The notes beneath the pieces were generated by a model that worked only from the letters and a program-made list of their open reading frames with translations, did not search any database and was not told the origin of the DNA. This document shows positions 41,353-58,245 of a stretch of DNA of 64,000 nucleotides, one piece after another; the stretch's first letter is position 1; every line of letters starts with the position of its first letter. The position numbers and the translations under genes are program-made. This DNA comes from Saccharibacillus kuerlensis DSM 22868 (lineage in GTDB: Bacteria > Bacillota > Bacilli > Paenibacillales > Paenibacillaceae), in NCBI RefSeq assembly GCF_000378145.1, contig NZ_KB899292.1:1-64000 (forward strand), in the 5' to 3' direction.

Positions 41353-41778
41353 ATGAAAGATCAGGAAATTACGCTGCTTTACGAAACGCCGCAGCCGGAA
41401 GAATATATCGCACTTCGGGTCGCAGCCGGCATGAGTGCACGCACGCTCGAAGCTGCTCGAACCGGACTGCCGAACTCGCTGTTTGCCGTCACACTGCGTG
41501 AACAAGGTCGGCTTGTCGGCATGGGCCGCGTGCTTGGAGACGGAGGCTGCGCCTACCTCATCTCCGACATCGTCGTGCATCCCTCGCTGCAGCGGCGAGG
41601 TCTTGCCCGCCGCATTATGACGGAGATTGAGCGCTACTTGGACGACAACGTACCTCCGGGTTCGTTCGTCAGCCTAATCGCCGACACTCCGGCCGACGCA
41701 CTGTATCGGCATTTCGGCTTTATCGACACGGCTCCGGCTTCAATCGGCATGTATCGCCCGAGCCGTCCTAACGTTTAA
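41353..41778 (+). CDS. GNAT-family N-acetyltransferase
   Basis: A 141-residue acetyltransferase. The acetyl-CoA motif is DIVVHPSLQRRGLARRIM (about 75-92, Q/RxxGxG/A), and the C-terminal LYRHFGFIDT is the usual last strand. The substrate is unknown. AAGGAG lies about 8 bp before the ATG. It is an isolated gene followed by a terminator. Confidence 0.9.
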   Translation: MKDQEITLLYETPQPEEYIALRVAAGMSARTLEAARTGLPNSLFAVTLREQGRLVGMGRVLGDGGCAYLISDIVVHPSLQRRGLARRIMTEIERYLDDNVPPGSFVSLIADTPADALYRHFGFIDTAPASIGMYRPSRPNV

Positions 41779-41816: not shown

Positions 41817-41860
41817 AAAGCCTCTGTACTCGGAATGACTTCCGGTGCAGAGGCTTTTTT
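41817..41860 (+). terminator. Terminator after the GNAT gene
   Basis: AAAAGCCTCTG...CAGAGGCTTTTTT with an inner CGGA/TCCG stem; T-run on the plus strand, A-run on the other side. Confidence 0.85.
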
Positions 41861-42007
41861 ATGGCATGTACGCAAACTATGAATCGACTTGATATTCAGC
41901 ACCTAACTCCTCCATTTAAAGCTGAGGGTTGAGCTGGAGGTTGGAGCCGAATACTTAAATGGTTTATCCTATCTGAACAAATCGACGCGTTTGCACACAC
42001 TCCTTAA

Positions 42008-42192
42008 AATAAGTGCATACATGCAGTTATTTTCTGCTTTTAGCTGCCTACAACCTTAATAAGTGCAAGAATACAACTATTTAGCATCAAAAAGCGTATA
42101 AAGACCCAAATTAGGACTTTAACTGCACTTGAGCACTTATTTTTCGAAAAAAGCTGTAAATAACACGAAATAAGTGTACATATGCAGCTATT
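42008..42192 (-). repeat. Dispersed element B, copy 1
   Basis: An AT-rich intergenic element with four 24-bp near-palindromic boxes (AATAAGTGCA-n4-TGCAGTTATT type) at 42008, 42058, 42118 (inverted) and 42169, i.e. 50-60-51 spacing. Reversed, it aligns end to end with 56770-56954, including the spacer ATTTACAG...TTTTTCGAAAAATAAGTGCTCAA. Boxes 3 and 4 can pair into a hairpin (CACTTATTT with AAATAAGTG). It lies in the 496-bp gap 41779-42274; the remainder of that gap shows only the GNAT terminator. There is no ORF. Confidence 0.85.
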
Positions 42193-42274: not shown

Positions 42275-43117
42275 TTAGATCTCCGCCGCTACTCCGAAAT
42301 GGTCGGACACGAGCGGACCGTTCTTGCCGTCTAGCACGACTTCGGACTTCTTCGCTTCGATCGGAAGGCTCGACAGGACGTAATCAATGCGTAGCGGACG
42401 TTCGTTATCTGCCCAGCCTGCGATCGCTTTGAGCACGGTCGACCCTTCGTCTTTCTCCGCTGCGGCCGTATATAGATCGCACCAGCCGTGGTCCAGCATA
42501 TAGTCGTAACCTTCCCTCCGGATCTGCGCCACATTGTTCAGATCACCGAGCATGAACAGCGTCTCTCCCGCCTCTCGCAGCGGCTTCAGCAGTTCTTCGG
42601 TCCGATCCCACTGAGCTTTGAACGGCTCTTCTTTATCATTCCACCAGCCATAATGACCGCTGAACAGCCAGAGCGGGTCCGCCCCGTTTTCCCCATTTGC
42701 CAACGAGGTCTTCACACCGAGCAGTCGGCGTGTTTTGGCATTCATATAGTCATGAATGCCCGATACATAACCGTATACTGCTTCCGTGATCGGCTCCCGC
42801 GTCAGCACGGCTACACCTTCATCATATCGTCCCTGATAAGCGCTATGTGTCGGCAGCCAAGACCAGAAATACGGCGTGTCCAGCTGTTCAAGCAGGAGCA
42901 GTGCATAATGGTCTTCGCGGATCTTGGTGCCTGGCTCCGCTTCGTAATACCGCGCAAGTCTCTCCGGCGCCGCTTCACTCGCTTGAGGCGACTGGTTGAC
43001 TTCCTGCAGCGCAATTAGATCGAAGCCTCGTTCATTGATAAAATCGGCCAGCTGTCCAATCTTTTTCTCCTGCTCTTCCTCATGCCAAGAGTGGGTATTC
43101 AGTGTCAGACATTTCAT
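42275..43117 (-). CDS. Endonuclease/exonuclease/phosphatase-family protein
   Basis: A 280-residue metal-dependent phosphodiesterase-fold enzyme: MKCLTLNTHSW (strand with Asn), DLIALQEVNQS (catalytic Glu, about 38), GHYGWWN, LGDLNNV (about 193, the GDxN motif) and a terminal SDHFGV (catalytic Asp-His, about 270). There is no signal peptide. Relatives include nucleases, sphingomyelinases and inositol phosphatases; the substrate is unknown. It lies 36 bp after an Lrp gene, perhaps in the same transcript. Confidence 0.9.
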   Translation of the reverse strand: MKCLTLNTHSWHEEEQEKKIGQLADFINERGFDLIALQEVNQSPQASEAAPERLARYYEAEPGTKIREDHYALLLLEQLDTPYFWSWLPTHSAYQGRYDEGVAVLTREPITEAVYGYVSGIHDYMNAKTRRLLGVKTSLANGENGADPLWLFSGHYGWWNDKEEPFKAQWDRTEELLKPLREAGETLFMLGDLNNVAQIRREGYDYMLDHGWCDLYTAAAEKDEGSTVLKAIAGWADNERPLRIDYVLSSLPIEAKKSEVVLDGKNGPLVSDHFGVAAEI

Positions 43118-55269: not shown

Positions 55270-56301
55270 GTGGCTGATACGATCCCGCCAAAAGTCAATC
55301 AAGAAGTCCATCAAAAGGAAACACTCGGTTCAATGATCAAAAAAGGCAATACCTCCTCCGCCGTCGCCATGGCCGGCAATGCTGTGCTCGCAGCCGCCAA
55401 AGGAGCAGCCGCCTTTTTCACCGGCAGCGGCGCTATGTTCGCCTCGGCTATGCACTCCCTTGCGGACGCTGTAAATCAGGGATTCGTCTTCGTCGGCAGC
55501 GTGCTGTCCGAACGGCGCCCAACCCGCAAGTTCCCGACCGGGTTCGGACGTGTAATCAATATCTTCTGTATGATTGCAGTTATCGTCGTGACTATTATGG
55601 CGTACGAGACGATCCACGAAGGGATTCACCTGCTGCGGCATCCCGGTGAAGCCTCCAGCGGCTTCTGGATTAACGTAGGCGTACTGATTTTAAACATTGT
55701 GATCGACGGCGCCATTCTATTCAAAGCTTCGAAGGAAATTTTGAAGGAAGCGCGTGCGCCGATGGTATCAGGAACTGCTCTGCTGCCGGCCGCATTCAAA
55801 AATGTGGGACGCGCTGCCCCGCCGACACGCCTTGTCTTCTATGAAGATATCGTTGCCGTTATCGGTGCATTTCTCGCTCTGGTGGCGGTCGTGGTCGTCG
55901 CCTTCACCGATTTTTCCCTGGTCGACGGTCTGGTAACAACCTTGATCGGTCTGCTGATGATCTTCGTCGCATTCCGGGTCGGCTACGACAACATGATCGG
56001 TCTGATCGGTGTATCCGCTCCGCAGGATGTCGAGGATAAAGTGTCTGCGGCCGTACTCGCCGATGCGGACGTCGTCGATATTCGCGAAATGCGCATTATC
56101 CAGGAAGGCCGTTACTATCATGTCGATACCGTTGTAGAGCTGCGCGTAGGCTTAACGCTCAGCGAAGCTGACGATATTATGGAACGAATCGAAAATCATC
56201 TCGTCACCGTTCCCGACATTGCCGATGCCGCCGTCGCTATTGTAGAAGACGATGGGAAAGTCAGCTGGCATCGGAGAGAAGCGGAGATTCAGCGGAATTA
56301 G
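55270..56301 (+). CDS. Cation diffusion facilitator (CDF) transporter
   Basis: A 343-residue CDF exporter: TM helices at about 25-50, 55-75, 95-115 and 130-150, then 190-210 and 220-240, with GAMFASAMHSLADAVNQGFVFVGS (about 53-76) containing the helix-II metal site HSLADA, and a cytoplasmic C-terminal ferredoxin-like domain (about 250-330). It exports Zn2+, Mn2+ or Fe2+ against protons; the HxxxD site favours Zn or related ions. GTG start with AAAGGAGGAG about 7 bp upstream. Confidence 0.92.
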   Translation: MADTIPPKVNQEVHQKETLGSMIKKGNTSSAVAMAGNAVLAAAKGAAAFFTGSGAMFASAMHSLADAVNQGFVFVGSVLSERRPTRKFPTGFGRVINIFCMIAVIVVTIMAYETIHEGIHLLRHPGEASSGFWINVGVLILNIVIDGAILFKASKEILKEARAPMVSGTALLPAAFKNVGRAAPPTRLVFYEDIVAVIGAFLALVAVVVVAFTDFSLVDGLVTTLIGLLMIFVAFRVGYDNMIGLIGVSAPQDVEDKVSAAVLADADVVDIREMRIIQEGRYYHVDTVVELRVGLTLSEADDIMERIENHLVTVPDIADAAVAIVEDDGKVSWHRREAEIQRN

Positions 56302-56594: not shown

Positions 56595-56634
56595 AAAAAA
56601 GGCAGGTTCTCCGCATTGGAGAACCTGCCTTTTT
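56595..56634. terminator. Terminator downstream of the CDF gene
   Basis: A perfect 17-bp stem AAAAAGGCAGGTTCTCC with its complement, 5-nt loop, A- and T-runs on both sides. Confidence 0.92.
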
Positions 56635-56687: not shown

Positions 56688-56751
56688 ACACACGCACACG
56701 CACACGCACACGCACACGCACACGCACACGCACACGCACACGCACACGCAC
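56688..56751. repeat. Hexanucleotide microsatellite (ACACGC)n
   Basis: About ten uninterrupted copies of the 6-bp unit ACACGC. It is intergenic, between the CDF terminator and element B copy 2. Confidence 0.95.
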
Positions 56752-56769: not shown

Positions 56770-56954
56770 AATAAATGCGTATATACACTTATTTCATGTC
56801 ATTTACAGATTTTTCGAAAAATAAGTGCTCAAATACAACTAATTGCCGCATTTTGACCGCCTATGACCCTTTCTCTGCAAAATAGTTGTATATCTGCACT
56901 TATTACGATTCAAAACAGCCAAAATCGAAAAATAATTGCATTCACGCACTTATT
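56770..56954 (+). repeat. Dispersed element B, copy 2
   Basis: Four 24-bp boxes at 56770 (inverted), 56820 (direct), 56881 (inverted) and 56931 (inverted), i.e. 50-61-50 spacing; the same order and spacing as copy 1 at 42008-42192 read in reverse. The best conserved part is TTTTTCGAAAAATAAGTGCTCAA. There is no ORF. It is the main feature of the 846-bp gap 56302-57147, which otherwise holds the 18-bp repeats, terminator, microsatellite and a 22-bp repeat. Confidence 0.85.
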
Positions 56955-57147: not shown

Positions 57148-58245
57148 TTATCCCTTACGGAAATAAGCCTCGAATTTCAAATCCGGTCCCAGCTGTTCGA
57201 CACGAAGGTCGTCCAACTCGAACGCTTCGTCCATATTGCCGACGCCCAGTCCTTCAAGGAATGTTGGCGCATCCTTGCCGCCGACCAGCTTCGGAGCCAT
57301 GTACAGCAGCAGTTTGTCCGCGAGTCCCTGTTCGACAAACGAAGCGTTCACTTGGCCGCCGCCTTCGACGAGCAGCGAAGAGATTTCGCTTGAGCCGAGC
57401 GTATCCAGCACCTGCTCCAGGTTCACCCGTTCGCCATCCGTCTCGATCACGCGTACGCCCGCGGCTTCCAGCCGCTCGCGCTTGGCAGGATCCGCATTCG
57501 AGCCCGTGAAAATCCAGGTCGGCGCCTCTCCGTCCGTAATGACTCGGGCGTCTTCCGGAATGCGCAGCGTGCTGTCCAGCACGACACGCAGCGGATTGCG
57601 GCCGTTTGGCAGCCGCGTTGTCAGCTGCGAATCGTCATGCAGAATCGTCTGTACGCCGACCAGAATCGCACCGCTCTCGTGGCGCAGCCGATGCACGTCT
57701 TCGCGAGCTTCCGCGGACGTAATCCAGCGGCTGCTGGAAGTACGCGTCGCAATCTTGCCGTCCAGTGTTGTTGCGGATTTCACCGTAACGAACGGCCGCT
57801 TGCTGACAATGTAACGATTGAACACTTCGTTCAGACGCTCGGATTCTTCACGCAGCACGCCTTCAATTACTTCGATGCCGGCGTCGCGCAGAATCTTGAC
57901 ACCCCTGCCGGCTACAAGCGGATTCGGGTCCGGCGCCGCGATCACAACGCGGGATAACCCGGCGCGTACAACCGCTTCGGCGCAGGGACCGGTTCGACCA
58001 TGATGGGAGCACGGCTCCAACGTAACATAGATTGTTCCGCCTTTGGCATGATCTCCGGCCATGCGCAGCGCATGAATCTCGGCATGCGGTTCGCCCGGCT
58101 TGAGATGCGCTCCAATTCCGACAATCCGGCCTTCGTTCACGATGACCGAGCCGACCATCGGATTTGGTGCCGTCTGGCCTTTTGCGGAGCGGGCATTTTC
58201 AAGTGCCAACCGCATGTATGTTTCGTGAATGGACATTTCGCTCAT
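57148..58245 (-). CDS. ribD: Riboflavin biosynthesis deaminase-reductase RibD
   Basis: A 365-residue bifunctional enzyme. The deaminase domain (about 1-145) has HAEIHAL (zinc His and catalytic Glu, about 54) and PCSHHGRTGPCAEA (zinc Cys pair, about 78-92); the reductase domain (about 150-360) has VTVKSATTLDGKIAT and LLVEGGGQVNASF. It converts the GTP cyclohydrolase II product to the ribitylamino-pyrimidine. It lies 6 bp after ribA. The usual partners ribE and ribH are absent from the window. Confidence 0.95.
   Translation of the reverse strand: MSEMSIHETYMRLALENARSAKGQTAPNPMVGSVIVNEGRIVGIGAHLKPGEPHAEIHALRMAGDHAKGGTIYVTLEPCSHHGRTGPCAEAVVRAGLSRVVIAAPDPNPLVAGRGVKILRDAGIEVIEGVLREESERLNEVFNRYIVSKRPFVTVKSATTLDGKIATRTSSSRWITSAEAREDVHRLRHESGAILVGVQTILHDDSQLTTRLPNGRNPLRVVLDSTLRIPEDARVITDGEAPTWIFTGSNADPAKRERLEAAGVRVIETDGERVNLEQVLDTLGSSEISSLLVEGGGQVNASFVEQGLADKLLLYMAPKLVGGKDAPTFLEGLGVGNMDEAFELDDLRVEQLGPDLKFEAYFRKG

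Follow-up and report, generated by a model that had tools for sequence, protein, structure and literature searches.

The non-coding, 185-bp four-box element that occurs twice in the window (the whole stretch of 64,000 nucleotides that was analysed, taken from a 4.70-Mb Saccharibacillus genome) is probably a helically phased binding array on double-stranded DNA for a putative protein, acting at the ends of transcription units; we put the probability of this reading at about 0.58. A putative sequence-specific protein, probably a dimer, would bind each 24-bp box. Successive bound units would be 50-51 bp, 60-62 or 51-52 bp, and again 50-51 bp apart, distances near whole helical turns, and the four together would form one mirror-symmetric nucleoprotein complex. 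This complex would act at the DNA level, mostly between converging genes, its most likely roles being to organise the chromosome, to serve a topological function or to insulate transcription. Several observations favour a protein array on double-stranded DNA: the near-whole-turn spacing, the shorter mirror gap seen in another family, the mirror order, how slowly boxes and spacing have changed between two close species, and the lack of a consistent pairing constraint. From these observations we infer the binding protein, its dimeric binding, the formation of a complex and its exact role.

Boxes, spacing and mirror order

The two copies in the window (Table 1) had been noticed in the first-pass annotation, and the reverse of copy 1 indeed aligns with copy 2 over its full length. 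The box pattern AATARNTG-N8-CANYTATT (≤ 2 mismatches) has eight matches in the 64 kb, all inside the two elements and four in each, as had been claimed; shuffles of the window gave a mean of 0.45 matches and a maximum of 2. Other details needed correction. The spacing, given as 50-60-50, is actually 50-60-51 in copy 1 and 50-61-50 in copy 2, and the spacer TTTTTCGAAAAATAAGTGCTC, described as kept, is common to the two window copies but is not kept as such in other aligned copies. The stated order 'inverted, direct, inverted, inverted' does not hold in general. The genome-wide order is > > < < around a dyad: two boxes point inward from the left and, after the mirror gap, two point inward from the right. 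This order is nearly constant in 22 elements, with a few ties and one slight exception. Such constancy argues against sites of a site-specific recombinase or invertase, as does the fact that box centres differ between boxes and between copies. The 24-bp boxes, with two inverted halves and a 6-bp centre, do resemble recombinase sites in size, yet this explanation is very improbable.

Table 1. Positions of the two elements, their boxes and neighbouring features in the window, and of interrupted boxes in other loci
Feature	Position	Strand	Remarks
Element copy 1	42008..42192	-	Box A to box D on - strand; 4 boxes, 50-60-51; profile R1 match C16:42006-42194:-, E 3.8e-29
Copy 1 box A	42169..42192	-	Box-pattern scan; orientation score slightly against rule (8 vs 7)
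Copy 1 box B	42118..42141	-	2 mismatches to box pattern
Copy 1 box C	42058..42081	-	Box-pattern scan
Copy 1 box D	42008..42031	-	Box-pattern scan
Element copy 2	56770..56954	+	Spacing 50-61-50; profile R1 match, E 4.1e-32
Copy 2 box A	56770..56793	+	Box-pattern scan; orientation tie
Copy 2 box B	56820..56843	+	Box-pattern scan
Copy 2 box C	56881..56904	+	Box-pattern scan
Copy 2 box D	56931..56954	+	Box-pattern scan
IS5-type terminal inverted repeat GGCATGTACGCAAACT, 16 bp	41863..41878	+	D side of copy 1
Intrinsic terminator of left gene, ahead of copy 1	41818..41856	+	-26.8 kcal/mol, T tail
Intrinsic terminator of left gene, ahead of copy 2	56599..56631	+	-25.8 kcal/mol, T tail
GNAT acetyltransferase, left of copy 1	41353..41778	+	Own gene call and domain match
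Exo_endo_phos family protein, right of copy 1	42275..43117	-	Own gene call and domain match
Cation efflux family protein, left of copy 2	55270..56301	+	Own gene call and domain match
RibD-type protein (dCMP_cyt_deam_1 and RibD_C), right of copy 2	57148..58245	-	Own gene call and domain match
IS4-interrupted boxes	L076:3963; L077 (rc):3720; L078:3272; L081 (rc):3814; L082 (rc):3866		

The geometry was measured in 114 elements of four Saccharibacillus genomes, the window's own (G000) and three other species (G002, G008 and G011), sampled as 36, 27, 27 and 24 elements that were mostly the best-scoring ones. A full four-box core was present in 102; eight of the 12 incomplete elements lie at contig ends of G000. 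The core is exactly 50-61-50 in 85 of the 102 and within 1 bp of it in the remainder; the middle value is partly a product of selection, since cores were required to have a middle gap of 57-64 bp, a restriction that did not apply to the outer gaps. Extra boxes, found in 12 of the 114 elements, always lie 49-51 bp further out. A scan of loci from other genera with a relaxed box found mostly elements spaced 50-51, 60-62 and 50-51 bp; it allowed only steps of 48-53 or 58-64 bp and gave no chain at 13 loci. In another family of the order (f7), all nine loci of G079 and G084 have a mirror gap of 51-52 bp and outer gaps of 51 bp. This mirror gap is about 10 bp shorter than usual, close to one helical turn.

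The box is approximately AATARNTGC-N6-RCANYTATT in Saccharibacillus, whereas other families of the order have an oriented core of approximately TGCAAAARTRCANYTATT. Oriented from outer to inner, the consensus is AATAAnTGCnnnnRnACAnTTATT in Saccharibacillus, nnTAnCTGCAAAAnTGCAnnTATT in f7 and YYAnAATGCAAAAGTGCATTTATT in a further family, f6. Longer arrays, of 6-14 boxes at a distance of about 51 bp, occur in G022 and G053 (L105, L106, L116 and L117), whose GC-rich spacers resemble one another inside an array and differ from one array to the next.

Distribution and conservation among relatives

When one mismatch was allowed, the box pattern, which is palindromic, matched 138 sites in the 4.70-Mb genome, against 2 for a reversed control. 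The profile R1, built from sequence only using 19 aligned elements (excluding the interrupted L018, L028 and L037), matched at least 43 distinct places in the window's genome (89 rows), several of them cut by contig ends, among the 150 of 1219 first-look candidates that were scored. Under strict filters, with 26 candidates scored per genome and some genomes being drafts, at least 37 of 98 genomes match at E 0.001, the window's own included; they comprise at least nine of the 16 Saccharibacillus genomes, leaving seven with no match. As the distribution among congeners is so patchy, the element is not essential. A strict four-box pattern run over 84,980 species, in a search that may omit records of or near the window's own genome, returned 23 stretches (15 in S. 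alkalitolerans, five in Paenibacillus sacheonensis, two in P. rubinfantis and one in P. timonensis). Box counts are very uneven, with 315 in G053, 267 in G011 and 253 in G002, and most genomes are near the control level. The genome and its relatives thus hold many further copies with the spacing kept, and the isolated pair that the first-pass annotation had named as counter-evidence was not what was found.

In the complete genome G002 the 77 matches fall into 61 loci spread over the chromosome; 29 of the 61 lie in one fifth of it (G002:C1:2.81-3.93 Mb), on one arm only by GC skew. The first-pass annotation had proposed that orientation be compared with genes and with the replication origin and terminus: relative to genes, most elements lie in convergent gaps; no clear origin or terminus pattern was seen in G002, where the GC skew of sampled pieces suggests an origin at about 2.2 Mb.

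The replication terminator protein (RTP) is known mainly from Bacillus. Its gene (G000:C11:113701-114051 in the window's genome) was found in every one of the 16 Saccharibacillus genomes searched, and its occurrence in other relatives is scattered. Replication fork traps bound by RTP would be polar, mirrored sites of asymmetric sequence, and the boxes are both asymmetric and mirrored. However, the gene is also present in the seven congeners that have no R1 match, gave no match in at least seven element-bearing genomes (G016, G022, G025, G053, G057, G079 and G089), and the elements are spread over the G002 chromosome. This pattern of presence and absence refutes fork traps as a general explanation, which we regard as barely credible. 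RTP was the one candidate checked as the binding protein; it failed, and none was found.

An origin in phages or plasmids was rejected, as copy 2 had no blastn match in phage, viral and plasmid collections and two box-triple patterns gave 0 matches in viral contigs.

The first-pass annotation had argued that the boxes are under selection and that the two copies do not stem from a fresh duplication. This view is supported by the recurrence of the architecture across species, genera and families. It is also supported by a comparison of orthologous sites in G006 and G015, two close species about 90% identical in paired loci, where boxes and spacing change slowly. By flanking sequence, 13 of the 18 G006 loci pair with 13 of the 16 G015 loci, so element positions are largely stable; all 26 paired loci had been picked for an R1 match. 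Over the 13 pairs, differing positions amount to 54/776 (7.0%) at informative box positions, 39/387 (10.1%) at other box positions, 217/1065 (20.4%) in spacers, 2217/11901 (18.6%) in non-coding flanks, 1625/8440 (19.3%) at third codon positions and 977/16887 (5.8%) at positions 1 and 2, totals that are inflated by two pairs (L302/L308 and L304/L309) in which one flank is unalignable. The 11 well-aligned pairs, in three of which one copy is partly deleted, gave 39/648 (6.0%), 23/323 (7.1%), 163/901 (18.1%), 1212/10089 (12.0%), 1280/7118 (18.0%) and 471/14233 (3.3%), respectively (box versus spacer, P = 5e-13; box versus flank, P = 1e-6). Indel events were counted in the eight full pairs: two in 1479 element bases (1.4 per kb) versus 31 in 2751 near-flank bases (11.3 per kb; P = 2e-4), or 1.2 versus 13.2 per kb with a ninth pair. 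Both comparisons are biased in favour of conservation, as loci were found by their likeness to the element and the indel pairs were picked for having four boxes. Supposing that ascertainment cut the box divergence to be expected by half, the observed 6.0% would remain low relative to the spacer rate (P = 0.003) but no longer relative to the flank rate (P = 0.55). The flank class may also contain genes missed by our own gene caller. The sequence test for selection is thus weaker when non-coding flanks serve as the neutral standard and complete ascertainment is assumed.

Among distant species (the samples of 36, 27, 27 and 24 elements), elements share a gene gap at seven gaps, about one being expected by chance on the assumption of some 4,500 gaps per genome. 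Spacers at these shared gaps are near saturation. Spacer identity, scored for seven element pairs in six gene gaps (L164/L120 was left unscored because one copy has three boxes), is 0.59, 0.58, 0.61 and 0.45 in pairs from G002 and G008 and 0.53, 0.53 and 0.40 in the three other pairs, the last three being within or near the range of non-orthologous controls. The 99th percentile of these controls is 0.579 when the orientation is fixed and 0.601 when the better one of two is taken, and only one G002-G008 pair is clearly above both. With identities so near the control range, descent as opposed to independent gain is poorly shown at these gaps, and the clearer evidence comes from the close pair G006 and G015.

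Placement between genes and behaviour as RNA

Both window copies lie in gaps downstream of genes, as had been stated, and by our own gene calls (a hexamer model trained on the window) both lie between convergent genes. Placement was possible for 160 of the 169 elements in sampled loci: 85 are in convergent, 70 in tandem and five in divergent gaps. Element-free gaps of at least 250 bp in the same loci (n = 156) are 12 convergent, 85 tandem and 59 divergent, giving an odds ratio of 13.6 for the convergent preference (P = 2e-19); cases are not fully independent, as orthologous elements of G006 and G015 were both counted. Of the 70 tandem elements, 47 are closer to the 3' end of the upstream gene, and the gene-call scan found no element overlapping a called gene by > 60 bp. 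So strong a bias towards convergent gaps suggests that the element acts on the DNA itself, at places where opposing polymerases and positive supercoils come together.

Up to three genes on each side of the 114 elements were compared, reporting pairs with at least two matches or > 60% identity, and no common neighbour gene or cargo was seen. Matches within a genome came from nearby elements that share genes and from one IS reading frame (L076/L078), and those between genomes from orthologous genes; a shared neighbour or cargo was accordingly rejected. Short tandem repeats (units of 4-9 bp, at least three copies, at least 15 bp) were present in 18 of 87 element gaps versus five of 107 other long gaps (P = 7e-4), (CACACG)10 at 56689-56748 of the window, adjoining copy 2, being one instance of such a repeat. 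Such repeats possibly reflect replication slippage near a bound complex.

A terminator lies ahead of the element at 64 of 152 facing gene ends in four genomes, compared with four of 25 gene 5' ends. The remaining 88 of the 152 have none before the element, and none was found between either window copy and its right-hand gene; some elements may therefore be transcribed. Both terminators of the left-hand genes in the window were missed by a simpler scan and picked up by a later one. A possible replacement of terminators by elements was probed at convergent gene ends. Before correction for search length, terminators were present at 30 of 80 ends that have an element and at 38 of 60 that have none. 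At equal search lengths the counts are 11/75 with the element versus 19/60 without it within 100 bp (P = 0.02); P is 0.05 when 150 bp are searched and 0.80 when 200 bp are searched.

These open gene ends are one of the points in favour of an RNA-level element, in which the box hairpins would serve as terminators or stabilisers of mRNA. T tracts often follow directly on the near-palindromic boxes, scoring found a terminator-like hairpin on 46 of 228 element strands, and single window copies fold better than their shuffles (z from -3.0 to -5.0), although better-than-shuffle folding is expected anyway because inverted box pairs alone would give it. On the other side, the left gene's strong terminator precedes both window copies and RNA hairpins do not need near-whole-turn spacing. 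Pairing within the 109 boxes of the window's genome equals the shuffled expectation, and box positions 5, 6 and 9 mismatch freely in that genome. The covariation of box pairs that the first-pass annotation had proposed as a check was not borne out: none was consistent within boxes or between boxes A and D or B and C in G000, G002, G008 and G011. Exceptions were scattered. In G008 the outer halves of B and C and of A and D pair above shuffles (34 and 14 of 1000 shuffles reach the value), in G002 box C within itself (18 of 1000) and the outer halves of B and D (38) do so, as does box C within itself in G011 (40 of 1000), and in G000 the inner halves of B and C pair less than shuffles (999 of 1000 reach). 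RNAalifold gave -12.4 kcal/mol with 0 compensated pairs, and Rfam had 0 matches in six loci. Where the first-pass annotation had left the choice between protein sites and a fold, protein sites are thus favoured, while covariation, RNAalifold and Rfam give the fold no support. RNA structure was rejected as the main function, since folds beat shuffles but show no consistent covariation, and the RNA-level explanation as a whole is improbable.

Mobile elements, related systems and wider meaning

The element had been described as free of IS ends, which is wrong for copy 1: a 16-bp IS5-type end lies on its D side (Table 1), with no matching end on the other side within 900 bp. An IS5-type end, GGCMTGTAYGCAAAC (≤ 2 mismatches), lies within 900 bp of 20 of the 36 elements in the window's genome, so it is probable that an IS5-family MITE captured some elements and raised their copy number. 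G000 also contains four stretches of 829 bp that have both IS5-type ends (C4:288437-289265, C13:117428-118256, C23:58545-59373 and C46:4-832); an IS5-family transposase was read in the C4 and C46 copies (two of the four read), and the contigs of the four stretches have no R1 match among those listed.

It is from these observations that a selfish mobile repeat of MITE or REP type draws its case. Its boxes would be transposase sites, and copies would persist in gaps after genes that tolerate insertion. The patchy distribution agrees with it, as does box conservation that is not significant against the flank rate under complete ascertainment, and mobile repeats likewise avoid genes and promoters, which weighs against the protein array. 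However, the IS ends lie outside the boxes, and the same end is found near only 1 of the 78 elements of G002, G008 and G011 together. Positions are largely stable between G006 and G015, spacers drift while boxes and spacing change less, and the outer box edges of 103 elements lack direct repeats above shuffles: 5-mers were found in 1 versus 3.4 in shuffles, none were of ≥ 6 bp, and 4-mers were found in 14 versus 10.8, a value reached by 47 of 300 shuffles. An IS5-family MITE therefore probably accounts for recent copies in this genome and not for the element family, and a selfish repeat as the general explanation is unlikely, though it deserves to be weighed.

The boxes are also targets. At five contig ends (Table 1) a box is broken close to its centre by an IS4-family IS (end AGGCCTGTTGATTA). 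Judged by eye and with one junction visible in each case, the break falls after box position 16 or 17; the family was assigned from fragment matches below the curated cut-off. The IS4-family IS appears to target boxes precisely. In S. meliloti all nine copies of ISRm22, likewise an IS4-family element, sit in REPs (PMC1525189).

REPs and BIMEs are short extragenic palindromes in mirrored groups, often between convergent genes, which carry gyrase, IHF and Pol I sites and are targets of insertion sequences (PMC1525189, PMC3733652, PMC2817692). The REP/BIME systems of enterobacteria and pseudomonads share mirrored extragenic palindromes and convergent gaps with the four-box element, and BIMEs are its nearest functional counterpart. 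In contrast to REPs, the four-box element has a fixed spacing, whereas REP/BIME spacers vary from 20 to 100 bp (PMC3733652); it also lacks the GTAG tag, a Y1 transposase in element-bearing congeners and a consistent pairing constraint. Within 8 bp of 461 boxes, GTAG was found 0 times (8.7 expected on the basis of nearby DNA), CTAC 3 (4.1), CGTC 8 (23.5) and GACG 15 (26.8), and a Y1 transposase (PF01797) is present in one of 16 genus genomes, G007, which itself has no R1 match. A REP/RAYT system was rejected on the tag and transposase results.

MITEs resemble the subfamily that appears to lie within IS5-type inverted repeats and has probably multiplied in this genome, but in three other species 77 of the 78 elements sampled have the four-box core and lack such ends. 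Plasmid centromere arrays of the sopC type consist of tandem units with one palindromic protein site each, and the long arrays of G022 and G053 are like them; in contrast, the four-box element occurs at many chromosomal loci and in mirrored four-box form. The nucleoid occlusion proteins Noc and SlmA have dozens of dispersed sites for one DNA-binding protein, a likeness to the elements; the known Noc and SlmA sites differ in sequence from the boxes and are not known to be arranged in fours.

No published description of the four-box element was found in a search that covered part of the literature. More tentatively, and at somewhat less than even odds, it may be an order-wide chromosomal element of the relatives of Paenibacillus: a selected, mirror-symmetric array of four dimers at convergent junctions, served by its own dedicated protein and acting as an insulator, topological sink or anchor.

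Few sequence-defined bacterial architectural elements have a known geometry. Here the geometry holds to about 1 bp from one species to the next, another family has a mirror gap about one helical turn different, and the element marks convergent gene junctions in a group of bacteria about which little is known. As there are dozens of copies in each element-rich genome, one pull-down could name the protein, and with a named protein, a role in organising the chromosome or in insulating transcription at convergent genes could be tested directly.
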